From Flavobacterium plurextorum (GTDB lineage: Bacteria; Bacteroidota; Bacteroidia; Flavobacteriales; Flavobacteriaceae): DNA of 64,000 bases. Shown here piece by piece: positions 37,313 to 55,174 of the stretch. The stretch lies in NCBI RefSeq assembly GCF_002217395.1, contig NZ_MUHD01000016.1, forward strand, positions 251,860 to 315,859. Reading direction: 5' to 3'. The notes under the pieces are model-generated. The model was given only the letters and a program-made list of their open reading frames with translations, was not told the DNA's origin and did not search any database. Positions within the stretch are counted from its first letter, which is position 1. Every line of letters starts with the position of its first letter. The position numbers and the translations under genes are program-made.

Positions 37313-37354
37313 TACAAATATGGTTGCAACTTATAAGTTGCAACCATATTTGTA
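37313..37354. promoter_or_regulatory. Perfect 42-bp palindrome upstream of a DUF1254 gene
   Basis: Two 21-base arms pair perfectly around the centre at 37333/37334, with the core GTTGCAACTTATAAGTTGC. There is no T-run after it, so it is unlikely to be a plain terminator of the DUF3667 gene. Related half-conserved palindromes at 41127-41148 and 55153-55174 also precede DUF1254 units. It is probably an operator. Confidence 0.7.
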
Positions 37355-37435
37355 TATAAAAGAATTAAAGTTTTTCTTTTAAATTCTACTTTTAAAATCA
37401 GGAAATAATTCTATTTACAAACAAATTCCCTGATT

Positions 37436-38842
37436 ATGAAAAATCTAACTTCTTTTTTAATCATTTCACTTTTAGTAATTACTGCTTGTAAAAAAAACTC
37501 ATCAAGCGATCAAAAAGAAAGCACTGATACAGCAATATCTGCTGATTCTATAACCGCTATTGCAAAAGAAGCATGGATTTATGGATATCCTATTTTTTAC
37601 AACTATAAAACTATTTATGCGAGCGCTATAAATAAAGAAGCGAAAGAATATGCAGGTTTCAATAAATTTAAAAGTTTTGCGATGAGTGCAACTCCTGCAG
37701 ATACTTTGGTAATAACGATAAACAATGATACTCCTTATTCTATGGCTGCCATTAATGTTTCAGATGAACCTGTTGTTATGGAAGTTCCAAAAATAGAAAA
37801 CGACAGATATTATGTAATGCAGTTTGTAGATTTATATACTTTTAATTATGAATATATTGGATCGAGAACTACAGGAAACAATCCTGGGAAATATCTAATC
37901 GCTGGACCTGATTGGAAAGGCGAAACTCCAAAAGGTATTAATAAGGTTTTACGCTCTGAAACAAATTTAATTTTTCTTGTTGGACGCACCCAGCTTCATG
38001 ATCCATCGGATGTATCTAATCTTAAAAAAATACAAGCACAATATAAGTTAATTCCACTTCATGAATTCACGCAAAGCGCAGCTCCAAAAGTAAAAAAATA
38101 CAATTTACCACTTCCTGTTTGGAAAGAAAGCGATTATAGTTCTCCGCAGTTTATCAACGTATTAAATTCATTATTACAATATACAAGCGAAGACAGCAGT
38201 GAAAAAGAACTTAGAGCCCGTTTTGCAAAAATTGGAATTGTTCCGGGAACTCCTTTTGACAGCTCCAAATATCCGCCAGAAACTATTAAAGCAATAGAAA
38301 AAGGAATTGCAGAAGCAAAACAAGAACTGGAATCCAGCTTAAATAATGCTACCGATTTTGCAAATCTTTTTGGCACTCGTGCAGCACTTAAAAACAATTA
38401 CTTAACCAGAGCAGTTGCCGCCGCCGCAGGAATTTATGGAAACACAAAAGAAGAAGCAGTTTACACTGGAAGTATTAATGATAAAAACAATCAACCGCTT
38501 ACAGGGAAAAATAATTACATAATAAAATTCAGCAAGGATCAACTTCCAAAAGCAAAATACTTTTGGAGTATAACTATGTATAATCTGCCAAAACGTTTTC
38601 TTGTTCCAAACTCAATCAAAAGGTATTCGATTGGTAACAAAACTAAAGGATTAAAGTATGAAGCTAATGGAGATTTGATTATTTATTTACAAAACACAAC
38701 ACCTGGAAAAGACAAAGAAAGCAACTGGCTCCCTACTCCTAAAGATGAAAACTTCATGTTTGTTATGAGAATTTACGGCCCCGAAGCTGATGTGCTTAAC
38801 AACATTTGGAAAATGCCTTTACCTGAAATTGTGAAAAAATAA
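37436..38842 (+). CDS. DUF1254/DUF1214 lipoprotein (paralogue 1)
   Basis: A 468-residue exported lipoprotein with lipobox 'VITAC' at Cys18. The N-terminal DUF1254 region has 'EAWIYGYPIFYNYKTIYA' and 'TINNDTPYSMAAINVSDEPVVMEVP'. The C-terminal DUF1214 region has 'YFWSITMYNLPKRFLVPN' and 'SNWLPTPKDENFMFVMRIYGPE'. No enzymatic activity is established for these proteins. It is followed 38 bases later by a cupin gene. A perfect palindrome lies 81 bases upstream. Three paralogues occur in this window. Confidence 0.9.
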   Translation: MKNLTSFLIISLLVITACKKNSSSDQKESTDTAISADSITAIAKEAWIYGYPIFYNYKTIYASAINKEAKEYAGFNKFKSFAMSATPADTLVITINNDTPYSMAAINVSDEPVVMEVPKIENDRYYVMQFVDLYTFNYEYIGSRTTGNNPGKYLIAGPDWKGETPKGINKVLRSETNLIFLVGRTQLHDPSDVSNLKKIQAQYKLIPLHEFTQSAAPKVKKYNLPLPVWKESDYSSPQFINVLNSLLQYTSEDSSEKELRARFAKIGIVPGTPFDSSKYPPETIKAIEKGIAEAKQELESSLNNATDFANLFGTRAALKNNYLTRAVAAAAGIYGNTKEEAVYTGSINDKNNQPLTGKNNYIIKFSKDQLPKAKYFWSITMYNLPKRFLVPNSIKRYSIGNKTKGLKYEANGDLIIYLQNTTPGKDKESNWLPTPKDENFMFVMRIYGPEADVLNNIWKMPLPEIVKK

Positions 38843-38880
38843 TCCAACATTAATTTTATAAATTAATCTAAAAAAAACTC

Positions 38881-39351
38881 ATGGCAAAAGATAATCTTAT
38901 TGACGAAACTGCCCCAACAGCTTCAAAAATCATAACTGCCGAAGAAGGCTTACATCAAAATATTTTAGGAGATATTCAAAAGATAAAGCTTTCGGGAAAA
39001 GACACTGCGGGCAGATTCACCATATTTGAAAATGATAATCCGCCTGGAGTTGGAATACCACTGCACGTTCATGCAAATGAAGATGAAGTCTTTAGAATAC
39101 TTGAAGGAGAAATGGAATTTATTGTCGAAGGCAGCACAAGCGTATTAAAAGCGGGTGATACTATTTTTCTGCCAAGGCAAATACCACATTCTTTTAAAGT
39201 CGTGGGAGAACAAAATGCCAAAGCTATTGTTACAATAATACCTTCGGGAATTGAAGAAATGTTTACGCAGCTAAATCTCCTGCCTGCCGGACCGCCGGAT
39301 ATGAAGAAAGTCTTGGATATTTGCGGAAGTTTTGGAATTACTTTTTTATAA
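38881..39351 (+). CDS. Cupin domain protein
   Basis: A 156-residue single-domain cupin without a signal peptide. Cupin motif 1 is 'GVGIPLHVHANEDEVFRILEGEMEF', with metal ligands His, His and Glu. Motif 2 is 'GDTIFLPRQIPHSFKV', with the last His. It is probably cotranscribed with the DUF1254 gene and shares its terminator region with the convergent DUF1254 paralogue. Its reaction is unknown. Such small cupins may be dioxygenases, isomerases or binding proteins. Confidence 0.88.
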   Translation: MAKDNLIDETAPTASKIITAEEGLHQNILGDIQKIKLSGKDTAGRFTIFENDNPPGVGIPLHVHANEDEVFRILEGEMEFIVEGSTSVLKAGDTIFLPRQIPHSFKVVGEQNAKAIVTIIPSGIEEMFTQLNLLPAGPPDMKKVLDICGSFGITFL

Positions 39352-39429
39352 AAAGCTCCTTCAGCAAATTGAATCGTTAAAATATAAAGATTTAATATTG
39401 ACATCCCTAAAAACAACTCAATTATATAA

Positions 39430-39468
39430 AAAAAAGCATGGTCTTGAAACCATGCTTTTTTTTCTTTT
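39430..39468. terminator. Bidirectional terminator between cupin and DUF1254 genes
   Basis: An AAAAAAGCATGGT / ACCATGCTTTTTT stem with a short loop has A- and T-runs on its two sides. It is well placed for both convergent genes. Confidence 0.85.
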
Positions 39469-39482
39469 ATCAAACTGTTTAT

Positions 39483-40994
39483 TTATTGTTTTACTACTTG
39501 AGGGATCTTGTATTTACCACTCAAAATTTCATCACTAGGTTGATAAAGTCTTAATATCAAATAAAAACCTCCCTTAGGTGCCGGAAGCCAATTATTAGTA
39601 TCCTTTGGTTTTGCATTAGAAATCGTAATTTCAAATGTACCATCTGCTTTTTTCACAAAACCTTTTATATCATTACTAATTTTATACCTATTTAGTTCAT
39701 TTTTTACAAGCAATTTATTACTAGCGTCATACATTGTAAGAGACCAGAAAGCATTAACAGGCGGTTCTTTATCAAAAGATATCTTATAAGTATTTTTTCC
39801 GTCTAATGCATTATTTTCACTATCTGTATATCTAATAGGATATAAAGCTTCTTTTTCTCCTTGTCCGCCCAAATAAGGACCTGCAACCATAGAACGTAAA
39901 GCATAATCATAACCAAAATTATCTAATTTATTTACCCATTGCCAGCCATTTACAATTGAAGCTGCAGATTTTACAGATGCAATAATAGTCAATGGAGCCT
40001 CAAGTGTTGCATCATACAAACCTTTTCGCTGCATTTTATTTAATTTTGAGTCATCGAACTTTCCAGGAATAATACCAATTTTTTCAAACTGACCAACCAA
40101 CGCTTTATCTACTTCGGGAATTGGATTATTTGCCATAACAAAAGCTAGTTTTTTGTAAAATCCTAAACTATCTTTATCAGTCACATTTGGAAGAGCTGGT
40201 AAACTTGATGCTAATTTTGGAGCAGCACCACCATTAAATTCGGATAAAGAAACTAGCTTAAACTGATCTTGCAAAGCGTGTAGTTGTTTCATATCTTCCC
40301 CTTGTTTTACATTTAAACGTCCCCATAACCAAACTTTTTGTGTTGCTGGCGAAATTACTTTAGAAATACCTTTTGGTATATTTCCTTTCCAATTTGGAGG
40401 AACAATTAAAAATGCACCTGGTTTAGTACCTGTTTCTCTTCTACCAATATAACTGATAAGATTTTGGTACATATCAAAAACATCGACCACATAATAACGA
40501 TCTTTTGTGTCGGGAGTTTTTAGAACCATTGGCTGTTGAAGATCTACAACGGCGCTTAAATAAAAAGTATCGTTATTAGCTGTTGGCATATCTGCATCAG
40601 CATCTGTAGGCAAAGTCCTCGCCCATCCTATTTGATTTAAAGGAGCACGATAACTTGTTGCTGGTTTTGGATTTGGAACATCAATATATGATCGCATGCT
40701 TTCTTCCATTCTCAGCAGCGCATAACCCCATTGATAAGCAAGTGTTCCTGCCGTTTTTGCAGCATAATAATCTCCAAGATCTTGAACTTCATTAGTTCCA
40801 GGTATTTCGATCACAGGATCTTTTTTAGACGCTACCTGATCTAATATACTTTTTGTATCCGTTCCAACGCCTTCCTCCTTAGCTTTCCTTTCTTCATTAT
40901 CACTCTTTTTACAAGATGACAGTACAAGAGAAACAGCTAAGATATAAACACTAATCTTAACAAATTTCTTCAGGGTTTTGAATTCATTTTTCAT
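39483..40994 (-). CDS. DUF1254/DUF1214 lipoprotein (paralogue 2)
   Basis: A 503-residue lipoprotein whose signal ends 'SLVLSSC' (Cys28). The DUF1254 half contains 'YQWGYALLRMEESMRSYIDVP' and 'MPTANNDTFYLSAVVDLQQPMVLKTP'. The DUF1214 half contains 'NAFWSLTMYDASNKLLVKN' and 'NNWLPAPKGGFYLILRLYQP'. It is transcribed towards the cupin gene. A partial copy of the shared palindrome lies about 133 bases upstream at 41127-41148. Its function is unknown. Confidence 0.9.
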   Translation of the reverse strand: MKNEFKTLKKFVKISVYILAVSLVLSSCKKSDNEERKAKEEGVGTDTKSILDQVASKKDPVIEIPGTNEVQDLGDYYAAKTAGTLAYQWGYALLRMEESMRSYIDVPNPKPATSYRAPLNQIGWARTLPTDADADMPTANNDTFYLSAVVDLQQPMVLKTPDTKDRYYVVDVFDMYQNLISYIGRRETGTKPGAFLIVPPNWKGNIPKGISKVISPATQKVWLWGRLNVKQGEDMKQLHALQDQFKLVSLSEFNGGAAPKLASSLPALPNVTDKDSLGFYKKLAFVMANNPIPEVDKALVGQFEKIGIIPGKFDDSKLNKMQRKGLYDATLEAPLTIIASVKSAASIVNGWQWVNKLDNFGYDYALRSMVAGPYLGGQGEKEALYPIRYTDSENNALDGKNTYKISFDKEPPVNAFWSLTMYDASNKLLVKNELNRYKISNDIKGFVKKADGTFEITISNAKPKDTNNWLPAPKGGFYLILRLYQPSDEILSGKYKIPQVVKQ

Positions 40995-41126
40995 TGATCG
41001 ACTTTTTATGATTAAATTAATTTATAAAAAAAGCTGTTTTCTATTGAGTGAAAAACAAACTCTTTCTTGCGCTGTTGAATGCAAAATAAATTTACAAAAA
41101 GCCTTTTGCGAAATTCTATATATGAT

Positions 41127-41148
41127 GTTGCAGATTATAATTTGCAAC
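41127..41148. promoter_or_regulatory. Shared palindromic operator upstream of DUF1254 paralogue 2
   Basis: GTTGCAGATTATAATTTGCAAC keeps the TTGCA..TTATAA..TGCAAC framework of the 42-bp palindrome at 37313-37354, with two mismatched pairs near the centre. Confidence 0.6.
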
Positions 41149-41163
41149 CAATTTGAAATGTTA

Positions 41164-42684
41164 TTATTTAAAAATATTCATTTCTTCATTATAAATAGGA
41201 CTTTCAATACTTAAAAAGTTTAAAACACTGTGAAAAACATGGTTTTGAGTCAGTGTTTTATTCGTCTTCAGTTCTCGTGAATTATCAGAAACCCATACAA
41301 TAAAAGGTATTTCATATTGCTCTTTAGGAGCAAAACTTATAGGAACTCCGTGCATGTACAGATTTTTTTCTCCTAAAGATTCTCCATGATCCGAAACAAA
41401 AATCATCGTACTTTTATATTCCTTCAATTGTTTTAAATCTTCAATTACACGATGCAGAATATAATCTGTGTAAACTATAGTATTGTCATAAGCGTTGATA
41501 AGTTCCTTTTGAGAACATTTTCCTAATTCTACACTATTACAAACTGGTTTAAAAATCTCAAATTGAGACGGATATTTTTTGCTGTAAGCAGGTCCGTGAC
41601 TTGTACTTGTGTGTAATACGATAAGAATTTTATTTTTCTTACTAGCCGATATCTGCTCTTTTAATCCAGTTAAAAGAACCTCATCATAATTACACTCTGC
41701 TCCTATACAATCCTTTCTTAAAACATCTCTATTTTGATATTTTTCAATATGTACTGGTGGTTCTCCCCAATTGGTAGTTCTCCAGATAACCTCAACATTA
41801 TTTCTGAATAAATAATTGGGTAATATCTCATAAATATCATCACTACTGGTATGTTCCAAAATACATTTTACGCCAGCAGTTGTATAAGTTGCACAAGAAA
41901 CAGCATTAAAATGAAATACATTCTGTGTTCTAGAAAGCAGCGGATTGGTGTTTTTCTCATAACCATATAAAGAGAAATTCTCACTTCTTGCTGATTCTCC
42001 TATTACTAAAACAACAATCGCTTTCTGATTGTCTTTTATTACCGCATTTGGCAGTAAAATTTCCTTTTGATTCTTTTTGTATTTATGGATATAGAAAAGT
42101 GACGTATTTACAGAATATGACCAAGGCATTGCAAGACCTCCTAATTGTTTTGAGTTTTTATCAATCCACAACCAATTGCTTGCATTTGCAAATATTAAAA
42201 CAGCAATAAACAATAACGTAAGAGAAGAAATGATTAAAAATCTCTTCCACGTTTCATTTATTATTTTCGTTTTAATGATATAAATACTGGGAATTATCCC
42301 AAGGAAAACAATGTATAAAACTAGTTTAATCGAAAAAAAACTGCTCGATTCTTCATAATTGGAATTGAGAACATTACCAATCATACTTTCATCTATGATA
42401 ACATTATAAGTATTGATAAAATAAAGCGCTGTAGAATTGATTACAAAGAATAAAACCAATAAAAATTTTCCAATATAATGCGAAATAAAAAATAGCAAGA
42501 AAAAAACAAACGCATTTAAAACCAACATTAAAACTATTAAACTTCCAATCAAGACAATACCATTCATGCTTTTATAATCAACGTTATTAAAGACATAAAC
42601 ATAAAATGGTAAATGAAAAAAAAGAAAGTTCAAAAAACTCATCAGTAAAACAAAATGAGTTATTCTTAAGTTATTTTTCAACAT
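41164..42684 (-). CDS. EptA-like lipid A phosphoethanolamine transferase
   Basis: An inner-membrane enzyme that adds phosphoethanolamine to lipid A, usually giving resistance to cationic peptides such as polymyxin. Five N-terminal helices (about 8-175) precede a periplasmic sulfatase-fold domain. Zn ligand E220 is in 'VLVIGESARSENFSLYGY', the phospho-acceptor Thr is in 'AVSCATYTTAGVKC' (256-259), and 'IFVSDHGESLGE' and 'MHGVPISFAP' supply further ligands. Its 506 residues are slightly shorter than the usual 540 or so. It is divergent from a two-component system, an arrangement reminiscent of eptA-pmrAB. Confidence 0.88.
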   Translation of the reverse strand: MLKNNLRITHFVLLMSFLNFLFFHLPFYVYVFNNVDYKSMNGIVLIGSLIVLMLVLNAFVFFLLFFISHYIGKFLLVLFFVINSTALYFINTYNVIIDESMIGNVLNSNYEESSSFFSIKLVLYIVFLGIIPSIYIIKTKIINETWKRFLIISSLTLLFIAVLIFANASNWLWIDKNSKQLGGLAMPWSYSVNTSLFYIHKYKKNQKEILLPNAVIKDNQKAIVVLVIGESARSENFSLYGYEKNTNPLLSRTQNVFHFNAVSCATYTTAGVKCILEHTSSDDIYEILPNYLFRNNVEVIWRTTNWGEPPVHIEKYQNRDVLRKDCIGAECNYDEVLLTGLKEQISASKKNKILIVLHTSTSHGPAYSKKYPSQFEIFKPVCNSVELGKCSQKELINAYDNTIVYTDYILHRVIEDLKQLKEYKSTMIFVSDHGESLGEKNLYMHGVPISFAPKEQYEIPFIVWVSDNSRELKTNKTLTQNHVFHSVLNFLSIESPIYNEEMNIFK

Positions 42685-43027
42685 AAAGCGTACTAATTTT
42701 ATCTAATGTAACAGCTAAGCTAGTAAATGCTAAGTAAAAGATACTCAAGTTATCACTAATTATTTTATTAATTGAACAAATACAGAAAATTACAAATCAC
42801 ATAATCCAAACAGAATACTATTTTTTAGTGTTTATCCTTTTTCAAATTTCTATATTTTCAGCTTATAAAAATCTAAAAAAAAACTTCCTGTGATTACATG
42901 AAACGGATTGACAGACTAGGTTTTTGCTGCTATTTAATCTAAAAACATTACCTTAGATTTTCATAAAAACAACACCGATTCTTATAATATTCAACTTTTC
43001 TTCAAAATTTAAGCATAAACTTGTCGC
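42685..43027. other. Divergent control region, eptA-like gene / response regulator
   Basis: A 343-base AT-rich region with no ORF. It must hold promoters for both directions. No confident -33/-7 pair was located. Confidence 0.4.
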
Positions 43028-43705
43028 ATGAAAATTTTAATTATAGAAGATGAGCTGGAAATTGCTCAAAGCATCAAGAATTATTTTAAAACCAACGGTA
43101 TTCAATGCGAAATGGCCGAAAACTATGATTTGGCGCTTAACAAAATTGATTCTTACGATTACGACTGCATACTTCTAGATTTAATGCTTCCAGATGGTGA
43201 CGGATTTGACATATTAAGGGAACTAAAACGCAAAAACAAAACTGATGGTGTAATTGTAATTTCGGCCAAAGAAACTCTTGAAACACGTTTGGAAGGTTTT
43301 AATCTTGGCGCAGATGATTTTCTAACAAAACCTTTTCATTTATCAGAACTTCTCGTTCGAATGCAGGCTCTTATACGCCGTAAAAACTTTAAAGGAAACA
43401 ACAGTATAACTTTCAATGAGATTGTTATTGATATATTGTCTAAATCTGTAGCTGTAAATAACACAAAATTAGATCTGACCAAGAAAGAACTGGATTTGCT
43501 TCTTTTTTTAATTGGGAATGAAAATAAAGTATTATCCAAATCGGCTATTGCAGAACATCTTTCTGGAGATATGGCTGATATGCTCGATAATCATGATTTT
43601 ATTTATGCACACATCAAAAACCTAAAGAAAAAACTCTCTCAAGCAGGAAGCGGCGATTACATTAAAACAATTTATGGTCTTGGATATAAATGGGAAAATG
43701 AATAA
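43028..43705 (+). CDS. OmpR/PhoB-family response regulator
   Basis: A 225-residue DNA-binding response regulator. The receiver has the acidic pocket 'IIEDE', phospho-acceptor D51 in 'CILLDLMLPDGDG' and K101 in 'DDFLTKPF'. The C-terminal winged helix (about 128-222) ends in 'YIKTIYGLGYKWENE'. It overlaps the kinase start by eight bases (ATGAATAA). It probably controls the adjacent PepSY and receptor genes and perhaps the divergent EptA-like gene. Confidence 0.95.
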   Translation: MKILIIEDELEIAQSIKNYFKTNGIQCEMAENYDLALNKIDSYDYDCILLDLMLPDGDGFDILRELKRKNKTDGVIVISAKETLETRLEGFNLGADDFLTKPFHLSELLVRMQALIRRKNFKGNNSITFNEIVIDILSKSVAVNNTKLDLTKKELDLLLFLIGNENKVLSKSAIAEHLSGDMADMLDNHDFIYAHIKNLKKKLSQAGSGDYIKTIYGLGYKWENE

Positions 43706-44963
43706 TAAAAAACTACTTAACAAAACAACTAACAGCTTTCTAGCCTACTCTATCGTTATTTTATTGATAGCTGCTCCCTTATTTTATTTCATAAGCCAAT
43801 ATCTTTATATTTATGAAACCGATGAGGTGCTGCATTTTCATAAAGGCGCGTTTATAAACGAAATCCATGAAGATTTTACTCAAAACGATATTGATTTATG
43901 GAACAAATACAACCATGAAGTTATGATTGTACCTGATATGGGTGTAAAAAAGGATTCTATAGTTGGAAAAATGCTGTATGATTCTGTGGCAAAGGAGAAA
44001 GAACCTTTTCGAGTGCTTTATGCTCCTGTTACTATAAATGGAAAAAAGTACACCTACACGGAGAGAATGAATGTCCTGGAAATGGAAGAAATGTTTTTTA
44101 GTATTGCTCTTATATTCCTTTTTATCATTATTATGCTTTTGTGCGGTATTATATGGATTTCAAAAATGACAGCCGCAAAAATTTGGCATCCTTTTTATAA
44201 TACATTAAATCAGATTGAGAGTTTTGAAATAGATAAAAATAAACCACCGCATTTTATCCCTACTGATATCAATGAATTTGATCGTCTTAATAAAAGTTTA
44301 GATCGACTTATCGAAAAAAATACAGCCATTTATAAAAGTCAGAGAGAATTTATTGAAAATGCAGCACATGAGCTTCAAACTCCTTTAGCTTTATTTCAGA
44401 CTAAAATTGATACGCTTGCGCAGCTCAATCTTGATAAAGAACAATCTAAACTAGTTTCATCTTTAAATACAGATGTAGCAAGACTAAACAGACTTAATAA
44501 AAATTTATTACTGCTCTCTAAAATAGACAACGAAAGTTATCTCGAAAAAAACACCATCATCCTTAATGACTATATTAAAAAACATTTAGACTTTTTTACA
44601 GAACAGGCTAACGCTAAAAACCTGAGCATTATAACCGAATTCACTTCTACTTTAACTATAAGCGGAAATCCTGCACTTACAGAAGTATTAATTAATAATC
44701 TATTTCTAAATGCCATACGTCACAACAAAAAAGACGGTCAAATTATCATTAGAACTTTAGAGAATGAGTTAGTATTTTCAAATACTGGTCAAAGCAGCGC
44801 TCTGAAAAATGAAAAACTTTTTAACCGTTTTTCAAAAAGCAATCCTTCATCTCAAGGAAATGGTCTTGGTTTGGCGATTATCAAAAAAATCACCACACTT
44901 AATGGCTGGAAAATAAACTATACTTTTAATAACAATCTGCATATTTTCAGCGTCAAATTCTAA
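43698..44963 (+). CDS. Sensor histidine kinase
   Basis: A 421-residue membrane kinase with two transmembrane helices (about 15-34 and 131-153) flanking a small periplasmic domain. The HisKA motif is 'FIENAAHELQTPLALFQ' with H224. HATPase boxes are 'NNLFLNAIRHNKKDG' and 'NGLGLAIIKKI'. The start at 43698 is chosen because it overlaps the regulator's stop codon and gives a normal membrane N-terminus. Its cognate partner is the upstream OmpR-type regulator. Confidence 0.94.
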   Translation: MNNKKLLNKTTNSFLAYSIVILLIAAPLFYFISQYLYIYETDEVLHFHKGAFINEIHEDFTQNDIDLWNKYNHEVMIVPDMGVKKDSIVGKMLYDSVAKEKEPFRVLYAPVTINGKKYTYTERMNVLEMEEMFFSIALIFLFIIIMLLCGIIWISKMTAAKIWHPFYNTLNQIESFEIDKNKPPHFIPTDINEFDRLNKSLDRLIEKNTAIYKSQREFIENAAHELQTPLALFQTKIDTLAQLNLDKEQSKLVSSLNTDVARLNRLNKNLLLLSKIDNESYLEKNTIILNDYIKKHLDFFTEQANAKNLSIITEFTSTLTISGNPALTEVLINNLFLNAIRHNKKDGQIIIRTLENELVFSNTGQSSALKNEKLFNRFSKSNPSSQGNGLGLAIIKKITTLNGWKINYTFNNNLHIFSVKF

Positions 44964-45034
44964 AAATTCAGACTTCCTACAGATTCGCATTTGATCTTTG
45001 TGCTATCATTTTAATCAATTAAAAGAAAGTACAT

Positions 45035-45463
45035 ATGAAAAACTCAATGCTAACCTGTTTAGTACTGCTTTTTTCTTTTTTTGCCACAGCGCAAAAAATG
45101 AAAGAAAAAGACATTCCTAACATTGTAAAAACGTCCTTTTTTAAATCTTATCCCAAACAAACAAATGTAAAATGGGAAAAAGAAAAAGGGAATTACGAAG
45201 CCAATTTTACTATTGGAAAAACTGCGCATGCCATGCTTTTAGATTCTAATGGCAGTATTATAGAAACTGAAGAGGAAATCAGCATAAAAAAACTGCCTGC
45301 CAAAGCCGTGGCTTATATTCAAAAGAACTACAAAAATAAAGAGATCAAAGAAGCTGCTATTATTACGGATGCTCACGGCACTGTGACTTTTGAGGCACAA
45401 GTGACTTCTATTGACTTGATTTTTGACAAGCAAGGAACTTATATTAAAAGCATAGCAGATTAA
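45035..45463 (+). CDS. PepSY-like periplasmic protein
   Basis: A 142-residue exported protein with a signal peptide ('MLTCLVLLFSFFATAQ'). It has two repeats of the PepSY-like (DUF2874/BLIP-like) fold: 'IVKTSFFKSYPKQTNVKWEKEKGNYEANF' and 'VAYIQKNYKNKEIKEAAIITDAHGTVTFEAQV'. Flavobacteria often place these beside two-component systems and TonB-dependent outer-membrane receptors. It is 71 bases after the kinase and 10 bases before the receptor, so one operon is likely. It may be a periplasmic binding or inhibitor protein. Confidence 0.8.
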   Translation: MKNSMLTCLVLLFSFFATAQKMKEKDIPNIVKTSFFKSYPKQTNVKWEKEKGNYEANFTIGKTAHAMLLDSNGSIIETEEEISIKKLPAKAVAYIQKNYKNKEIKEAAIITDAHGTVTFEAQVTSIDLIFDKQGTYIKSIAD

Positions 45464-45473
45464 AACCATACAA

Positions 45474-47885: not shown

Positions 47886-47903
47886 CTTGTATTTTATTAT
47901 TTT

Positions 47904-47952
47904 ATCTCTAAATAGGTTTCTTTTTCAAGTAACTATTTAGAGATTTTTTTTT
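47904..47952 (+). terminator. Terminator after the outer-membrane receptor gene
   Basis: A 12-bp perfect stem (47904-47915 with 47933-47944) is followed by a nine-T run, between convergent genes. Confidence 0.88.
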
Positions 47953-47974
47953 ATGCATTTTATATCAATATCAT

Positions 47975-48223
47975 CTATCTAAAAAGTGATATTGTATCTG
48001 CCAGATTCTCTTTAATTATAAATGCATTAATAAATTCCTGCACCTCCATATTTGTTTCAACAGGAGTTTCAAAAGAGTTGATATGAAACTCATCATCTTG
48101 ATCCAGAATATGTATAATTTCTGTGTAGCCCTTAGTAATTAAACTTCCTTTTAATTTAATTATATTCAACTGTTGTTGACTATTCAACTCCTTGCGGACT
48201 TTTAGTTTTATAGCTTTTTCCAT
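47975..48223 (-). CDS. Hypothetical small protein (82 aa)
   Basis: An 82-residue charged soluble protein starting MEKAIKLKVRKELNSQQQ. No signal peptide, membrane helix or known motif is seen. Coding is supported by the clean ATG frame and its own intergenic spaces rather than by homology. It lies convergent to the receptor gene and 345 bases from the next receptor. Confidence 0.5.
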   Translation of the reverse strand: MEKAIKLKVRKELNSQQQLNIIKLKGSLITKGYTEIIHILDQDDEFHINSFETPVETNMEVQEFINAFIIKENLADTISLFR

Positions 48224-48568
48224 CGTAAATATTTTTAAATTAATAAAGATTCAATTCCTATCAAATGTAGAAAATTTTTATTTTTTGTTCTGTTAAAAAA
48301 ACAGATATAAATCATTATTTACTAACATATTAACATTAAAACCTCAACTTAGAAAATATCTTAAACAAAACGTTTAGAAAAGAGAGCAGGTTTTAGAAAA
48401 AATAAAAACAGTCCATACCGTAATAAAATAAGATCTGTCTAATAAGTAGTTTTTCAAGAGTTTTTCTGTCAATCACACTAATTTACTAAGAAACAGTACT
48501 GATATTAAGCCTTATATTTTATTACATTTCATATATTTGCGCTTGTTTTAATTAAGTCTAAATAAATA
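48224..48568. other. Control region of the siderophore-type receptor
   Basis: A 345-base AT-rich gap. TATATTTG at 48532-48539 fits a -7 box for the downstream receptor, but no TTTG lies 19 bases upstream. A CAAAACGTTTAG word at about 48367 resembles the LacI-type operator core only partly. Confidence 0.4.
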
Positions 48569-50743
48569 ATGATAAAATTTTCTACTCTACTCCTAGTGTT
48601 CTTTTCGATAAGTACACTTTCTGCACAACAAGTTTCTAAAACAAATACAAACAACCAAAAAGACAAAACCACTAAAAGTCAAGACAGTATCTTAAACGAT
48701 AAATCGAAAGCTGATAATGAATTGCAAGAAATTGTAGTTTCTGCGTCTAGAAAGGCTGAAATTCTAGATGAGGTTCCTTCATCGGTAACATTGTTATCCA
48801 AAAAACAAATTCAACAACAATTAAGTATAAGCTCAAATCTAAGCGACATATTAGGTGCAACAGTTCCAGGTTTGGGTTTTTCGACTAATAGAACTCAAAA
48901 CTTAGGTCAGACTTTACGCGGCCGACGTGTTTTGGTCATGATTGATGGAATTCCGCAATCTACACCGCTTAGAGATGGCGCTAAAGACATGCGATCTCTT
49001 GATCCTACTGTTCTAGATCGCGTAGAAGTTATTAAAGGAGCAACTGCTATTTATGGTAATGGTGCCGATGGCGGTTTGATAAATTATATTACTAAAAAAT
49101 CAAATCCAGACAAAGCAATAAGTGGATCAACAGAAGTTGGAACAGCTTTTTCTTTGGTTAAACCGGCTGAAACTGCTGGTTTCTTTGTATCGCAGTTATT
49201 TACTGGAAAAATAAAAAAGTTCGATTATGTGGTGAGCGGACGTTATGAGGAAACTGGTCTTTATCGTGATTCAAAAGGACGTGTACTTTCACCTGAATAT
49301 GGAATGAATGATCTTAAAAATTGGAATGCTTTTGCGAAAGTCGGCTATGATTTTAATGCAAACAATCGTTTAGAATTAATGTATAATTACTTTGAGAGTA
49401 CACAGCATACTGATTATGTTGCTAAAGCTGGTGTTTATGGCAATTTTGATTCGCCTACAACTGGTGTAAAAGGACAACGTCCGGGAGAGCCTGAAGGAAC
49501 TCCGTATAACCATAATGCCAGTTTAAGTTATATTGGAAAAAACTTCATTGGAAAAACGGATGTTAATGCTTCTCTTTATTTTCAAGATTATCTTACGTTA
49601 ATTAATTACAGCGATTTTTTTGAAAACAACGGACAGCCTGCTACTCAAAGTAAAAAACTTGGTTTTCGTTTAAATTTAAATACGCCTTATGAATTCAGTT
49701 CACTTATATCGGGTAATTTAACTTATGGTTTAGATATCCTATCTGATATAACTGATACTCATCTTACTGATGGACGATTGGTAATTCCAGAAATGAAGAT
49801 GAATAACATAGCTCCTTATTTCCAGCTTAAAAATATGTTTGGACCAAACTTGGTTTTAAAAACAGGCTTAAGACTTGAAAATGTAAATATCGATGTGCCA
49901 GATTATACTACTATTGGTATTCGTAATTATGTAAACGGTACTTATGTAGGCGGCGGAATTGCTGTAAATGGCGGTGAATTAGATTTTAATGCACTTATGT
50001 TTAATGCGGGACTTCGTTATACAAAATGGAGGTTATTTAAGCCTTTTGTAAGTTTCTCTCAAAGTTTTAGTGTTGCAGATTTAGGTTTAGTATTACGCGC
50101 TGCCAAAGAGAATACCGTAAACAATACTTCGATAAAAGCGGTTGCGGCAAACAATTACGAATTTGGTTTCTCAGGAGCTTGGGCTAATCTTTCTTATGAT
50201 GCTGCGGTGTATTACAGTACTTCAAAATTAGGAGCTTCATATGTATACATTGATGGTAATCCGCAGATTTCACGCTCACCTGAGAAAATTTATGGTTTTG
50301 AGTTGTCAGCAAAATATCGTCTGCACTCTAAAGTTGATATTGGAGCCAATTATTCTTTTACTGAAGGAAAAAGAGAACTTACAGACAAAAAAGTTTATTT
50401 AGGAGGCGATCGTATAAATCCGCCAAAAATTACTGCATTTACTGTTATCAGACCTTTAGAAGCTTGGTCAATCTATTTGCAAATGATAAATACACCGGGA
50501 AGAGATCGTTTTGAACCTGTAAATGGCGCTTATACTTATGGAACTGGGCCTATTAAATCTTTCACAGCTTTTAATCTTTCTTCAAGTTATACCTTCAGAG
50601 AAAAAAGTACAATTCGCTTAGGTGTTGAAAACCTATTCAACAAAGATTATTACTCTGTTATCTCTCAATGGCAGTCAAACAATATGAATTATGTAAAAGA
50701 AAATGGCACACGTTTGACGGTTAGTTTTACACAAGCTTTCTAA
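48569..50743 (+). CDS. TonB-dependent siderophore-type receptor
   Basis: A 724-residue outer-membrane active transporter. The signal peptide is followed by a TonB box-like 'LQEIVVSASRKAEI'. The plug has 'LRGRRVLVMIDGIPQSTPLRDGAKDMRSLDP' and 'VEVIKGATAIYGNGADGGLINYITKK', the pattern of ferric-siderophore receptors. The barrel ends in 'RLTVSFTQAF' with the terminal aromatic residue. It lacks the CarboxypepD_reg domain of the preceding receptor. Iron chelate uptake is the likely role; the ligand is not predictable. A strong terminator follows. Confidence 0.92.
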   Translation: MIKFSTLLLVFFSISTLSAQQVSKTNTNNQKDKTTKSQDSILNDKSKADNELQEIVVSASRKAEILDEVPSSVTLLSKKQIQQQLSISSNLSDILGATVPGLGFSTNRTQNLGQTLRGRRVLVMIDGIPQSTPLRDGAKDMRSLDPTVLDRVEVIKGATAIYGNGADGGLINYITKKSNPDKAISGSTEVGTAFSLVKPAETAGFFVSQLFTGKIKKFDYVVSGRYEETGLYRDSKGRVLSPEYGMNDLKNWNAFAKVGYDFNANNRLELMYNYFESTQHTDYVAKAGVYGNFDSPTTGVKGQRPGEPEGTPYNHNASLSYIGKNFIGKTDVNASLYFQDYLTLINYSDFFENNGQPATQSKKLGFRLNLNTPYEFSSLISGNLTYGLDILSDITDTHLTDGRLVIPEMKMNNIAPYFQLKNMFGPNLVLKTGLRLENVNIDVPDYTTIGIRNYVNGTYVGGGIAVNGGELDFNALMFNAGLRYTKWRLFKPFVSFSQSFSVADLGLVLRAAKENTVNNTSIKAVAANNYEFGFSGAWANLSYDAAVYYSTSKLGASYVYIDGNPQISRSPEKIYGFELSAKYRLHSKVDIGANYSFTEGKRELTDKKVYLGGDRINPPKITAFTVIRPLEAWSIYLQMINTPGRDRFEPVNGAYTYGTGPIKSFTAFNLSSSYTFREKSTIRLGVENLFNKDYYSVISQWQSNNMNYVKENGTRLTVSFTQAF

Positions 50744-50800
50744 TAACATAACTAGTAAAATCTCCATAAATAGATTCTGCAGATTTTTCTAAAAACAAAT

Positions 50801-50845
50801 AGAGCCTCCAAAATCATTTGACTTTGGAGGCTCTGCGTTTTTACG
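50801..50845. terminator. Terminator after the siderophore-type receptor
   Basis: A GC-containing 12-bp perfect stem (50801-50812 with 50823-50834) is followed by 'GCGTTTTT', between convergent genes. Confidence 0.8.
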
Positions 50846-50911
50846 AACAATTAAAAAATATAATTGTCTGCTTTAATTCTATAATATAAAGTATTCTAAG
50901 TGCTGTTTGAA

Positions 50912-51721
50912 TTAAAAAATAACCTGAAACTGAAGTATCGCCTGCCAATTTCCAATTAAATCTGGTCTTTCTACATTATAAAAACCCTGAGCTGCTGCGG
51001 AATAAAAGAGCTTGCTTTTTGTACCTATTTGAAATGTTTTTCCTGGTCCGCCGCCAATAGGAACCAACCATTGATTACCACTTGAAGCCAGCCAGTTAAC
51101 CACTACCGTAGCGTTACTTTCAACAAACCATCCTTTTGGAAAATTGTAATAAGCAATATACTGAATGCTTCCTGAATTGACTTTATTTACACCATCACCG
51201 CCAAGAGACCAATAATTTTGCAATACGATTCCGCCAGAAAATTTGTCTCCAGCCATATATAATAAAGCCGAAGGTCCTAAGCTTAAACGATTACTTCCCA
51301 ATGCAGGATTTGTTCTGGTAGGAATTTGCATGGCGGGACCAATACCCCAACTGAACTTCCCTTTTTTTTGAATACTTGAAAAATATCCATTAAATAGAAT
51401 ATTTCCCATTCCCCCTTCATGTGTACCACCGTCAAAAAGCGGTGGTACGGTTTGAAAAGGAATAATAGTATAGGTTATCAGTTTTAAATTACTTGCCAAT
51501 TTAAAAGGATAGACAGGTTGTATCGAAAAAGAACTTGCTGTACCATCTGCAACTGGCAACAAAACTTCCTGCAAAAAAACACTGCGCAGACCACTTACAG
51601 GGTCTTGTCTTTTTTTGCTCATTTCTTCAATCGAAGTCTTTTCACTCTCATTTGACTGTCCGAAAATCGGAAAACAAATACAGAAAAATAAAATACTTAA
51701 AGCACTAGATTTAAAATTCAT
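50912..51721 (-). CDS. Outer-membrane barrel-like protein
   Basis: A 269-residue exported protein with signal peptide 'ALSILFFCICFPIFGQ'. The mature region is rich in alternating aromatic strands and Gly turns ('GMGNILFNGYFSSIQKKGKFSWGIGPAMQIPTRTNPALGS') and ends 'AILQFQVIF'. This fits a small outer-membrane barrel, somewhat like the phenol-degradation 'MetA-like' transporters. It is the last gene of an operon with two DUF1254 lipoproteins, 41 bases downstream. Its role is unknown. Confidence 0.7.
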   Translation of the reverse strand: MNFKSSALSILFFCICFPIFGQSNESEKTSIEEMSKKRQDPVSGLRSVFLQEVLLPVADGTASSFSIQPVYPFKLASNLKLITYTIIPFQTVPPLFDGGTHEGGMGNILFNGYFSSIQKKGKFSWGIGPAMQIPTRTNPALGSNRLSLGPSALLYMAGDKFSGGIVLQNYWSLGGDGVNKVNSGSIQYIAYYNFPKGWFVESNATVVVNWLASSGNQWLVPIGGGPGKTFQIGTKSKLFYSAAAQGFYNVERPDLIGNWQAILQFQVIF

Positions 51722-51762
51722 AGTATTTGTGTTTACTTTTAATATTTATCAAAAAGCGCTGT

Positions 51763-53307
51763 TTATTTTACTTTTTCAAAATCACCCGGTTTATATTTTC
51801 GATCAAAAAATTCTTGTTTTGGTCCATAAAAACGGAATAAAGCAAACCATCCTTTGCCTGGGACTGTTTTTAACCAATTTGCTTCGCCTGAAGGTTTATC
51901 AGGTCCTACAATAAAAGTTACCGATTTATCTGCATTGTAAATAAGCTTGTTCATAGAGTTTAATGACGGATATACTTGATCTTTTGCATCAACTCCAGAA
52001 GCAGTTTCTGCATCATATAAAGTCAACGACCAGAATAAACCTGCCGGCGGATTTGCTGGGAAAGTAATTTTATAGGTATTCTCTCCCATCAAAAAGTTAC
52101 CGTCTTTATCTTTATAAGCATTTCCATATTTCGCTCCTAAACCAGGAATAGAAGACATCATTCCAGTACTGATAGAATAATGGTTAATATACATTTGTAT
52201 TTTTGCATTTACATCTGTATGTTTTGTTATTCTGTTACGATATTCTTCGTCCAGTAAAGTACGCATAAAATCATCTTGTTTGGTTTTAGCATGAGCAATC
52301 CATTTTCGGTCAGCCCACCAAAGTGCATCTTTTTCTTTATCATAATTTCCCGCAACATTTTTAGCCATTTTCCATGCCGTTTGCGCTGCCTTACCTAACA
52401 ATTCTTTTTGTTTCTCTGTAGGTTTAAACGCTTCTCCCTTTTTGATTCCTATGGCTTCAAGCATACCGTGCATATAAGGATCTATATCATCTACTTTATC
52501 ACTTTGTATGAATCTGTCCAGCATTTCAAAATAACTAAAATCGTGCGCAAATAACGCATTTGAAGCAATATCAGAAACGTGTTTAAAATTCATAGGTTTT
52601 CTTTCTCCGCTGAGAGGATAAATTTTTATTCCTTCAACAGATTTTACTCCCGGCGACAAATCATCTACAGATTGAAAGAAACCACGCTGAAAAATAAAAA
52701 GTCCATTTGTTTTACATCTAAAAACGAAATAGTTTTTTTCGTCAACAGCGCCTTTATAATCTGATGGAATTACCAAATACTTCCCTCCTTTTCCTTTATC
52801 AGGTCCAGGAAGACCAATATCACCTAAATAAGTAGTCCCGTCTGGTTTTGCAGGACCTGCGAGCGGTCTGTGCCAATAATCATCTAATATTCCCTGAAGC
52901 ATTGGTGGAACTTCTAAAACTAAAGGTCCTGTTTTGCTCAGATCAGCAAATCCTAAGGCATAAATTACATCAGAATTTGGCGTTGTAATTACGGTTTTTG
53001 GTTTCAGTCTTTTTTCAAAAACAGAAATCACATTATATCCTTCGCCGGATATTTTGCCTAAACCTTCTTTCATCGCATACATATTTACAGCAGGTAATGC
53101 CCATAAATAAACTTGTGTGGCTCTTTGAAAATATAAATCATCATTTAACTTTTCAGAAGATTCGGCTGTTGGATAACCTCCAACAATCTCTCCATCTGTT
53201 GCTTTATCAGATGAAGTACTGCTGTTTACGGTATTATCTTTTGAAGATTCTTTACAACCTACGAGAAATAAAACTGACAAGATTGCGGTTACAATTATTC
53301 TTTTCAT
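51763..53307 (-). CDS. DUF1254/DUF1214 lipoprotein (paralogue 3)
   Basis: A 514-residue lipoprotein with lipobox 'LFLVGC' (Cys18). The DUF1254 half has 'ATQVYLWALPAVNMYAMKEG' and 'VITTPNSDVIYALGFADLSKTGPLVLEVP'. The DUF1214 half has 'LFWSLTLYDAETASGVDAKD' and 'ANWLKTVPGKGWFALFRFYGP'. The sequence departs most from the other three, with an extra central segment. It is cotranscribed behind paralogue 4 with a 30-base gap. Its function is unknown. Confidence 0.9.
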   Translation of the reverse strand: MKRIIVTAILSVLFLVGCKESSKDNTVNSSTSSDKATDGEIVGGYPTAESSEKLNDDLYFQRATQVYLWALPAVNMYAMKEGLGKISGEGYNVISVFEKRLKPKTVITTPNSDVIYALGFADLSKTGPLVLEVPPMLQGILDDYWHRPLAGPAKPDGTTYLGDIGLPGPDKGKGGKYLVIPSDYKGAVDEKNYFVFRCKTNGLFIFQRGFFQSVDDLSPGVKSVEGIKIYPLSGERKPMNFKHVSDIASNALFAHDFSYFEMLDRFIQSDKVDDIDPYMHGMLEAIGIKKGEAFKPTEKQKELLGKAAQTAWKMAKNVAGNYDKEKDALWWADRKWIAHAKTKQDDFMRTLLDEEYRNRITKHTDVNAKIQMYINHYSISTGMMSSIPGLGAKYGNAYKDKDGNFLMGENTYKITFPANPPAGLFWSLTLYDAETASGVDAKDQVYPSLNSMNKLIYNADKSVTFIVGPDKPSGEANWLKTVPGKGWFALFRFYGPKQEFFDRKYKPGDFEKVK

Positions 53308-53337
53308 AATTAATTGAATTTTGGTTTATCTCTATGT

Positions 53338-54828
53338 TTATTTCACTTTTACAACTGCCGGCGGATTCCAACTGTCGTTTAAAACCTTTTCTTCAGGCCA
53401 ATAGCATCTTACATACAAAGAGAAAACTTCTTTTGGCGCTGGAAGCCAATTGCTGATTTTGTCTTCAGATGGCGGCGTATTTTGAACATAAATAGTTAAT
53501 GAACCGTCAGCATTCTTTTTCAGGTTTTTATTTTTTGTTCCCAATGAATATCTCTTAAGCTCATTTGGTGCAAAAAAATGTTCAGCGTTGTACAGTGTAA
53601 GTGACCAAAATCCTTTTACAGGCGGAAGTTCTCCACTTGCAAATGTTACTGTATATTTGTTTGAACCGCTTAATCGAGTTCCGTTTTCATCACGATCTTG
53701 ATAAAAATATCTGGTCTCATTTGGTTTATTTACAAAAATATTGGCTTTAGCACAAGAAAGTCGAGTCAAATAATCGTATCCAAATTGTGCACCGTTACGC
53801 TGTGTTGTCCAATTGTATTTTACTGGATAACCTACATTTGCAAACTGGAATAATGGTGCAACTAGATTTTTATCAGCATCGATTGCAGCATTTATTGCTA
53901 TTTCTTTCAGTTTCGGATTTTTATTTAATGCATCTAAAAGTGCGTGTGCCTGAGCATAAAAAGCTTCTTCTCCCGGCATTGGTGGAACTTCTTTTAAAAT
54001 ATCAGCCAATTGATCAAAGAAAGTTTCCGGTTTTACCCATTTGGTTTCTCCTTTTTCTCCACCTGCATCTGGCGGAGTTACTTTTGTTTTTTTCCAGTCT
54101 GTAATTTTCATTTTGCCATCAAAATCTTCGAGAGGATATATCGCTATTTGGTTAATTAACGGCTGAACTGCTTTTTTATCAGCTGGGTCATCCGTTTGAA
54201 ATACACGAGGAATTACAATACCTCGAAGTGTTGAAGATTTAAAAACAGCCGCAATTCCATCAGGCACTTTTCCATTCCAGTCTTTGTGAGCAAGAAGGTA
54301 AAAGCCGGGTTTTGTACCATACATTTTACCAAAACTTGCAAAACCATCAGTACGCTGGTCACAAACCTGATATACCCAAAAACGATCTCCAAAATCTGGT
54401 ACCTGTACGACTACCGGCCCTAATGAAAGATCTAATGGCGACAAGCCGTAAACTACATCTTGATTAGGACAGGCAACAGCTCTTTCTGCTGGTTCGACAT
54501 AATCGTTCAGCATGCACAAATGATTTGGCGGCGCTAAAGGAAGTACTCCACCAGCATAAATTGCACCTGGTAGCGATCTAAATGTTTCTACTCGATTATG
54601 AATATTAACCAGTGGCCAGCCCCATCCGTAAATATTGGCAGCAAGATTTTTTACAAAAGCTTCTGTCATTATGGTATTAGGAATTGGCGCTGCAGGCCAT
54701 TTCTGCTTGGTAGTATCTGCTGTAACTGCAGTTGCATCGGCCGCACTAGATTTTAGTTCATTATCTTGCTTTTTACAAGATAAAAAAACTGAAGTTATCG
54801 CTAATAATAGAAATACATTTTTTTTCAT
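53338..54828 (-). CDS. DUF1254/DUF1214 lipoprotein (paralogue 4)
   Basis: A 496-residue lipoprotein with lipobox 'SVFLSC' (Cys18). The DUF1254 half has 'NIYGWGWPLVNIHNRVE' and 'VACPNQDVVYGLSPLDLSLGPVVVQVP'. The DUF1214 half has 'GFWSLTLYNAEHFFAPNELKRYSLGTKNK' and 'SNWLPAPKEVFSLYVRCYWPE'. It heads a three-gene operon. A sulfatase relic and a copy of the shared palindrome lie upstream. It pairs closely with paralogue 3 and may act with it in the periplasm. Confidence 0.9.
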   Translation of the reverse strand: MKKNVFLLLAITSVFLSCKKQDNELKSSAADATAVTADTTKQKWPAAPIPNTIMTEAFVKNLAANIYGWGWPLVNIHNRVETFRSLPGAIYAGGVLPLAPPNHLCMLNDYVEPAERAVACPNQDVVYGLSPLDLSLGPVVVQVPDFGDRFWVYQVCDQRTDGFASFGKMYGTKPGFYLLAHKDWNGKVPDGIAAVFKSSTLRGIVIPRVFQTDDPADKKAVQPLINQIAIYPLEDFDGKMKITDWKKTKVTPPDAGGEKGETKWVKPETFFDQLADILKEVPPMPGEEAFYAQAHALLDALNKNPKLKEIAINAAIDADKNLVAPLFQFANVGYPVKYNWTTQRNGAQFGYDYLTRLSCAKANIFVNKPNETRYFYQDRDENGTRLSGSNKYTVTFASGELPPVKGFWSLTLYNAEHFFAPNELKRYSLGTKNKNLKKNADGSLTIYVQNTPPSEDKISNWLPAPKEVFSLYVRCYWPEEKVLNDSWNPPAVVKVK

Positions 54829-54904
54829 GGTGAGTAATTTTAGCTGTTAAAAAGTCATTTAATCAGTATTCCGTTTTCTGAAAAATGAAAACGGAATATC
54901 AGTA

Positions 54905-55117
54905 TTATTTTAAATCAATATCTACTTTATCAATTTTGCCAGTGAACTTAAAGGGTACTTGATAGGAAGTGGTAACTGGAGAACCAGAATCTTCACCAAT
55001 TCCAAAAGTATCAATACCAAATCTGGCGGCAACAGTTTTATCAATTCGTCCTTCACCTGCCAATTTATTGTTGATGTAGAGAATGATTTCATAGTTTACA
55101 ATTTTATTGACACTAAT
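54905..55117 (-). pseudogene. C-terminal relic of an arylsulfatase gene
   Basis: The minus-strand frame reads '..YEIILYINNKLAGEGRIDKTVAARFGIDTFGIGEDSGSPV..YQVPFKFTGKIDKVDIDLK' and ends at a TAA. This matches the C-terminal beta-domain of arylsulfatases ('dg..va.GrieKT....f...etfdvGeD.gspV...y..PF.FtG.i.kV.i.l'). The N-terminal 450 or so residues with the catalytic Cys are missing, and an in-frame stop lies at 55118-55120. The deletion placed the DUF1254 operon next to its present control region. Confidence 0.75.
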
Positions 55118-55152
55118 TTACAATTAGGAGTCAAACAAAATTTTAAAATGAT

Positions 55153-55174
55153 GTTGCAAGTTATAATATGAAAC
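55153..55174. promoter_or_regulatory. Shared palindromic operator between DUF1254 operon and methyltransferase gene
   Basis: GTTGCAAGTTATAATATGAAAC matches the TTGCAnnTTATAAnnTG..AAC framework seen at 37323-37344 and 41127-41148. It lies between divergent genes, so it could act on either or both. Confidence 0.55.

Follow-up and report, generated by a model that had tools for sequence, protein, structure and literature searches.

A palindrome at set distances ahead of predicted Flavobacterium promoters suggests a regulon of arylsulfatases, outer-membrane proteins and DUF1254 lipoproteins

A 64-kb stretch of the 5.06-Mb genome of Flavobacterium plurextorum (G000:C8:251860-315859, analysed over its whole length and called the window below) encodes four DUF1254/DUF1214 proteins, all of which match PF06863 and PF06742 in Pfam, and the same 22-bp palindrome recurs upstream of these genes. 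This raises the question of whether the palindrome is a regulatory site and, if so, what kind of protein would bind it and which genes it would control. The recurring palindrome has the look of a genuine regulatory switch; what is new is that it lies 32 or 42–43 bases before the predicted Flavobacterium -7 promoter box, at a set distance ahead of genes for exported or cell-surface proteins. The regulon is wider than DUF1254, and its main target is arylsulfatases.

Three palindromes match the framework GTTGCANNTTATAANNTGNAAC on the + strand with 0 mismatches (37323-37344, 41127-41148, and 55153-55174), exactly where a preliminary description of the window had placed them, and there is no further copy: at ≤3 mismatches the same three places are the sole matches in 64 kb, giving 6 strand hits, a number reached by none of 100 shuffled windows (mean 0.71, largest 4). 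The sites lie 92, 133, and 325 bp upstream of paralogues 1, 2, and 4, respectively, and the surrounding genes are arranged as that description had them:

37323..37344: site 1, the perfect palindrome GTTGCAACTTATAAGTTGCAAC, upstream of paralogue 1 and the cupin gene
37436..38842, + strand: DUF1254/DUF1214 paralogue 1, 468 aa, with a lipoprotein-like N-terminus (judged by eye)
38881..39351, + strand: cupin (PF07883), 38 bp behind paralogue 1
39483..40994, - strand: DUF1254/DUF1214 paralogue 2, 503 aa
41127..41148: site 2, in the gap that separates the stop codon of an EptA-like gene from the start of paralogue 2
50912..51721, - strand: outer-membrane-like protein (judged by eye; no Pfam family), third gene of the 4-3 operon
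51763..53307, - strand: DUF1254/DUF1214 paralogue 3, 514 aa
53338..54828, - strand: DUF1254/DUF1214 paralogue 4, 496 aa
54905..55092, - strand: sulfatase remnant, between site 3 and paralogue 4
55153..55174: site 3, which separates the DUF1254 4-3 operon from the AprA-like methyltransferase gene
55350..56957, + strand: AprA-like methyltransferase (PF23525/PF23589/PF23526), divergent from site 3

The 4-3 operon probably extends into the outer-membrane-like gene at 50912-51721, which follows after a gap of 41 bp. The methyltransferase is an AprA-family member in a Flavobacterium, and no adjoining polyketide genes were recognised by eye.

For counts across the genome and the genus, the symmetric pattern GTTKCANNTTATAANNTGMAAC was used at ≤1 mismatch, with the reversed pattern as control. 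The F. plurextorum genome contains 9 such sites and 0 reversed-pattern matches, and six of the sites lie outside the window. One, on contig C7, is followed by genes for an OmpX-like protein, Porin_O_P, a DUF6515 protein, and a formylglycine-generating enzyme (FGE-sulfatase), so that this enzyme falls within a single site-led operon. Two sites on C22 are located ahead of a run encoding an arylsulfatase, a HAD-family protein, an outer-membrane-like protein, a DUF1254 protein, DUF2252, DUF2092, and DUF6515, behind which DUF4136 follows after a 254-bp gap; two on C23 lie between an arylsulfatase gene and that of a giant adhesin, and one on C20 is ahead of a DUF2490 gene. The regulon in this genome would therefore be one of sulfatases, porins, and DUF1254 proteins. 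The earlier claim that the palindrome precedes every DUF1254 transcription unit is true of the window and not of the genome, where a sixth DUF1254 gene (G000:C20:250168) has no site at ≤2 mismatches in the surrounding 6.8 kb.

Across 101 genomes of the genus, 197 sites were counted versus 7 for the reversed-pattern control; at least one site is present in 26 genomes and two or more in 21, with a maximum of 17. An exact-match search at the family level (299 genomes, 2 of them Flavobacterium) found one site in each of 2 of the 297 genomes outside the genus and more than one in none, and it revealed no second genus with the regulon. A scan of a collection holding one genome per species returned at least 120 stretches with a site. 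Among the matches listed, 114 of 120 stretches belong to Flavobacterium or a close relative, a count that includes "Flavobacteriaceae bacterium PS02336" and "[Flexibacter] sp. ATCC 35103", and the species include F. johnsoniae, F. pectinovorum, F. hydatis, F. aquidurense, F. anhuiense, F. saccharophilum, and F. araucananum; the other six come from Nitrosomonas, Neolewinella, Aquimarina (two), Saccharospirillum, and a Saprospiraceae metagenome-assembled genome. Within the genomes scanned, the palindrome was found almost only in Flavobacterium, where the conservation between related species that the preliminary description anticipated is borne out across many species.

The palindrome has the consensus kGTTKCAwwTTATAAwwTGMAACm, in which the half-sites GTTKCA and TGMAAC have their centres 16 bp apart and flank a conserved TTATAA centre. 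Comparison of 14 loci at the pyrD/porin region gives 94% identity for the palindrome versus 44% for its 60-bp flanks, and in the aligned rows a -7-like box on the porin side keeps its distance; at the DUF1254 sites the corresponding values are 84% and 36%. Flank identity amounts to 36–44% in four target groups and to 78% in a fifth, probably orthologous, group. Such dissimilar flanks indicate that the copies share no larger element, which speaks against a copied repeat. The palindromes do occur in many intergenic regions, as might be expected of a dispersed (mobile or REP-like) repeat or of a transcript hairpin or terminator. However, they keep fixed distances to the predicted start, which lies downstream of them, and the same site occupies the same place in all 14 loci of the pyrD/porin region; we regard an origin as repeat or hairpin as scarcely credible.

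Distances to promoters and first genes were counted in two sets of sites. The target set comprises 151 sites less 7 duplicates of context, that is, 144 distinct sites, 80 from named contigs and 64 from the window and the genomes with G handles. Its loci are L126-L205 (80 of the at least 120 scanned stretches), the window, L021-L026, L052-L091, and L102-L121; five non-Flavobacterium stretches and the 3-kb loci L001-L020, L027-L051, and L092-L101 were left out. The held-out set consists of the other 40 scanned stretches, less the non-Flavobacterium L244, and of 14 loci chosen for DUF1254, whose 53 sites were reduced to 51 by dropping 2 already seen. Genes were called by us as longest open reading frames (ORFs), which leaves start codons and very small genes in some doubt, and proteins were clustered by single-linkage BLAST, with a Pfam check on some members only (two in the sulfatase cluster).

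The -7 element TAnnTTTG of F. johnsoniae spans -12 to -5 and the -33 element of its promoters is hardly visible (PMC6847099); the -7 element of F. psychrophilum has the same position (PMC9723704). In the target set, exact TAnnTTTG boxes are concentrated at offsets 32 (15 boxes), 42 (17), and 43 (29) after the palindrome. Of the 184 target flanks, 66 have an exact box at offsets 31–33 or 41–44 (18 and 48, respectively), versus 0 and 3 when these windows are shifted by -5 and +5, and 3 of 103 non-target flanks have one; offsets 34–39 contain none, and the high counts after shifts of -10 and +10 (20 and 47) arise because one window then overlaps the other. Boxes matching at ≥5/6 are found in 124 of 184 target flanks (13 and 19 after the -5/+5 shifts; 14/103 non-target). 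The held-out set behaves likewise, with exact boxes in 17 of 74 flanks (1 and 0 shifted; 1/28 non-target) and boxes at ≥5/6 in 50 of 74 (9 and 6 shifted; 4/28 non-target).

Box offsets of 32 and 42–43 place the palindrome centres near -55.5 and -65.5/-66.5, in steps of about one helical turn, which corresponds to the geometry of a class-I activator on one face of the helix. Pairs of sites are similarly phased: 10 of the 14 pairs separated by less than 400 bp are 50 or 51 bp apart, near whole helical turns. This is good sequence evidence for reading the palindrome as a class-I activator site, activation being suggested by the geometry, and it is on account of this promoter geometry that we sharpen the "regulator" of the preliminary description to an "activator". 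No -33 TTG is present in the 64 aligned promoters, which is ordinary for the genus and proves nothing; a missing -33 box was rejected as a sign of activator dependence because this box is weak in F. johnsoniae promoters generally (PMC6847099). The predicted boxes of the window are as follows:

37387..37394, + strand: predicted -7 box TACTTTTA (5/6), 42 bases after site 1, with a predicted start at ~37399
41087..41094, - strand: predicted -7 box TAAATTTA (5/6), 32 bases after site 2
55113..55120, - strand: predicted -7 box TAAATTAG (5/6), 32 bases after site 3, on the operon side

A second 5/6 match, CATATTTG, abuts site 1 at offset 0; another 5/6 match is found at offset 37 behind site 2, and others at offsets 9, 13, and 46 on the operon side of site 3. 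On the methyltransferase side of site 3 the best match at the usual distances is 4/6, which makes control of the methyltransferase by this site doubtful.

Perfect palindromes are typical of repressor operators, and the CATATTTG match at site 1 would suit a repressor that keeps the genes off until a ligand removes it. The -7 box, however, follows the sites at a constant helical distance, which puts their centres near -55/-66, outside the -7 region, and offsets 0–10 are nearly free of boxes: 0–5 of 184 flanks per offset have one at ≥5/6, versus 34–42 at offsets 32, 42, and 43, and only one exact box occurs there in the target set and none in the held-out set. A repressor therefore appears quite improbable, and the class-I activator remains the reading that we carry forward.

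The genes behind the sites indicate what such an activator might be for. Six of the 144 sites lie inside an ORF and 13 have no gene start within 420 bp. When only the first gene behind each site is counted, leaving aside genes further along the run, the commonest is an arylsulfatase cluster (51 of 144 sites), followed by the giant adhesin (16), DUF1254 (14), pyrD (14; a bystander opposite a porin or sulfatase gene), an 80-aa protein (10), an 850-aa lipoprotein with no Pfam family (6), DUF2490 (5), AspT (4), Porin_O_P (4), and then a tail. First genes in the held-out set include sulfatases at 18 and DUF1254 at 14 of 51 sites (14 of its 53 loci were picked for DUF1254). Thus, a dedicated site and a regulon are supported, whereas a regulon built around DUF1254, as originally proposed, is not. 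All but one of the 42 sulfatases longer than 400 aa in the cluster contain the Cys-type formylglycine motif, CxPxR or CxAxR. That one regulon combines sulfatases with the enzyme that matures them and with porins suggests uptake and hydrolysis of sulfate esters.

Among the proteins behind the sites, a conserved 80–84-aa protein occurs in varied genomic surroundings (L060:5180-5422, L072:5180-5434, L048, L161, L169, and L187), and the tested member of this group has no Pfam family. A giant repeat-rich surface protein (by eye), longer than 1,500 aa and incomplete in the loci, is encoded at L023:9557-19000, with relatives in L057, L078, and L089. At L037:1501-1522 and at L117:5001-5022, a site is located ahead of a gene resembling, by eye, the initial gene of an extracellular contractile injection system; the genomes are G060, where it is the sole site, and G066.

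The reading that we favour, with a probability of roughly 0.7, is that the palindrome is the site of one clade-specific class-I activator driving an envelope regulon for sulfate-ester use. A single transcription activator, probably a dimer and specific to the F. johnsoniae group, would bind the palindrome upstream of TAnnTTTG promoters and recruit RNA polymerase from one helix face. It would switch on formylglycine-Cys arylsulfatases, the formylglycine-generating enzyme, porins and other outer-membrane proteins, DUF1254/DUF1214 lipoproteins (often in the same gene runs), other lipoproteins, and the giant adhesin.

The same targets could belong to a regulon for sulfur limitation, which would be the Flavobacterium equivalent of the CysB/Cbl response, as sulfatases, the formylglycine-generating enzyme, and porins are among them, a luciferase-like monooxygenase is found behind sites, and a biotin synthase occurs behind one site and a methionine-type ABC transporter near sites in three loci (both named by eye). 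However, Cys plus Met make up on average 2.48% of residues in 40 target clusters versus 2.59% in 376 others (p = 0.56), so the targets are not depleted; no cysteine-biosynthesis gene was recognised among the listed targets by eye, without a family search; and in these three loci the site follows the 3' end of the transporter gene instead of preceding that gene. We consider such a regulon rather unlikely.

Several observations also weigh against the sulfate-ester activator itself. Its direct targets are not poor in Cys plus Met, as just noted, and a site lies upstream of only 2 of the 16 PF00884 hits in the F. plurextorum genome, so most of its sulfatase-family genes are outside the regulon. 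Some genes at the sites have no evident link to sulfate esters, namely AspT with an aminotransferase-family gene, a PAP2 phosphatase, an aspartase-like lyase near a site, and, by eye, TolC/EmrA-like efflux genes and the adhesin. At the favoured offsets 60 of 184 target flanks lack a box at ≥5/6, and the boxes in the window are only 5/6 matches with rival 5/6 matches nearby. The promoter counts include orthologous promoters, which are not independent, the co-occurrence of sites and DUF1254 genes described below is confounded by phylogeny, and no binding protein was found in searches of the AraC, Crp, Rrf2, TetR, and GerE families in chosen Flavobacterium genomes.

The predicted enrichment of sites at DUF1254 genes was recovered at both the genome and the gene level. 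DUF1254 genes are present in 22 of the 101 genus genomes, comprising 20 of the 21 with two or more sites and 2 of the 80 others (Fisher p = 7e-18, not corrected for phylogeny). The exceptions are G033, which has 3 sites and no DUF1254 gene, and G001 and G009, which have DUF1254 genes and no site; the site-bearing genomes, mostly large, may form one clade. A hand tally of eight genomes gives a site (≤1 mismatch) no more than 6.5 kb upstream for 25 of 40 DUF1254 genes (G000 5/6, G006 3/3, G015 2/7, G042 4/6, G052 2/3, G066 2/3, G075 2/4, and G088 5/8), the long distances mostly spanning sulfatase-led gene runs that are putative operons. Several DUF1254 genes in site-bearing genomes have no site nearby (L274, L276, and L278).

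In the remnant listed above, behind site 3, the start codon of a sulfatase gene and some four codons lead, in a shifted reading frame, into the final 58 codons of that gene. These 58 codons encode a sequence 84% identical to residues 746–803 of an 803-aa sulfatase in G088 and 86% identical to residues 733–790 of a 790-aa sulfatase in F. daemonense. Both full-length genes directly follow a site, with TAAATTTA at offset 32 in G088 and, as in the window, TAAATTAG at offset 32 in F. daemonense (L140). On the simplest reading, an internal deletion removed the sulfatase gene and left its operator in front of the DUF1254 operon. In G057 (L271), a site lies 92 bp upstream of a similar run, in which two DUF1254 genes, with 47% and 45% identity to paralogues 4 and 3, precede the outer-membrane-like gene (87% identical), and no sulfatase intervenes; therefore, both arrangements exist.

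The remnant suggests that operators may pass between sulfatase and DUF1254 genes. A bolder reading, which we consider less likely than not, is that a regulator of a type for which no such site is known (half-site centres 16 bp apart, a conserved AT centre, and an A/T preference reaching ~15 bp from the palindrome centre) emerged alongside the DUF1254 genes in the F. johnsoniae clade, that DUF1254 proteins partner exported sulfatases in sulfate-ester uptake, and that operators therefore shuttle between both. We infer that DUF1254 lipoproteins may be partners in sulfate-ester uptake and hydrolysis. Solved structures in the database for DUF1254/DUF1214 proteins are those of VPA0106 and VPA0735; we found no function for these proteins in the accessible portions of open-licence literature mentioning DUF1254, and no paper in the open-licence literature linking DUF1254 and sulfatase. 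The ties of operator, neighbourhood, and co-occurrence to arylsulfatases and the formylglycine-generating enzyme would thus offer a first testable role for DUF1254/DUF1214.

Candidates for the activator were sought by family in chosen genomes (Crp 14, Rrf2 14, TetR 10, GerE 6, AraC 3). The best neighbourhood lead was the AraC-family protein c31, divergent from DUF1254 in G006 and G088, which was rejected on distribution and surroundings: it is present in 20 of 101 genomes, is missing in motif-bearing G004, G033, and G066, and occurs in motif-less G036 and G056; c31 loci were read in 14 of the 20 genomes (2 and 12 further ones), and the 12 have no site in the surrounding 12–13 kb. In the AraC search of 3 genomes (37, 27, and 26 hits) orthologues could not be resolved, and the GerE search of 6 genomes gave no clear candidate. 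Rrf2 was rejected as 8 motif-bearing and 6 motif-poor genomes, compared by score and not by tree, share score classes, with 2–5 hits each. A 197-aa TetR protein (66–99% identical) is present in 6 of 6 motif-bearing genomes, and none stood out in 4 motif-poor genomes, where 4 hits fetched proved to be other TetRs; like the Crp-family gene below, it appears confined to the clade among the genomes sampled, but it adjoins RND efflux genes, has no site nearby, and is poorly linked to the regulon.

Class-I geometry would suit a Crp/Fnr-family protein of the motif-bearing clade (G000:C6:332244), orthologues of which share its gene context in 7 of the 8 motif-bearing genomes sampled, while no hit of its score class stands out in 6 motif-poor genomes (two hits read as sequence). 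Crp/Fnr sites have half-sites ~11 bp apart with a TGTGA or TTGAT core, however, and the half-site centres of the palindrome are 16 bp apart. In addition, the recognition helix of the protein reads VETVIR, which we take to be FNR-like, no such hit was seen in motif-bearing G033 (two of 7 hits read), and no site at ≤2 mismatches is found in 12 kb around the gene. That this protein is the activator is very unlikely. The gene adjoins, by eye, a truncated-haemoglobin-like gene in all 7 motif-bearing genomes read (L246:6230-6826 and L247-L252).

Returning to the class-I activator of envelope genes, its site resembles those of known systems in some respects and departs from them in others. E. coli CRP binds TGTGA-N6-TCACA, with a class-I site at -61.5. 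Like CRP class-I sites, the 22-bp palindrome occupies discrete positions ahead of the promoter that differ by about one helical turn, but its half-site sequences GTTKCA and TGMAAC, their spacing, and the conserved TTATAA centre set it apart from the CRP site. CysB and Cbl govern the sulfur-scavenging regulons of enterics, and LysR-type sites have the form T-N11-A. The Flavobacterium targets are similar to CysB/Cbl regulons in including sulfatases, outer-membrane proteins, and a luciferase-like monooxygenase; unlike them, they include no cysteine-synthesis gene recognised by eye and are not poor in Cys or Met, and, unlike the T-N11-A form, the centre of the palindrome falls between two bases. 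The carrageenan regulon of Zobellia galactanivorans, also flavobacterial, is described as serving the catabolism of one marine polysaccharide, in a paper that mentions sulfatases 35 times (PMC5698469); no polysaccharide specificity is evident in the palindrome regulon. The palindrome regulon is a new regulon of an ordinary kind, and its rule of distance between palindrome and TAnnTTTG box would allow a clear test of class-I-type activation in Bacteroidetes.

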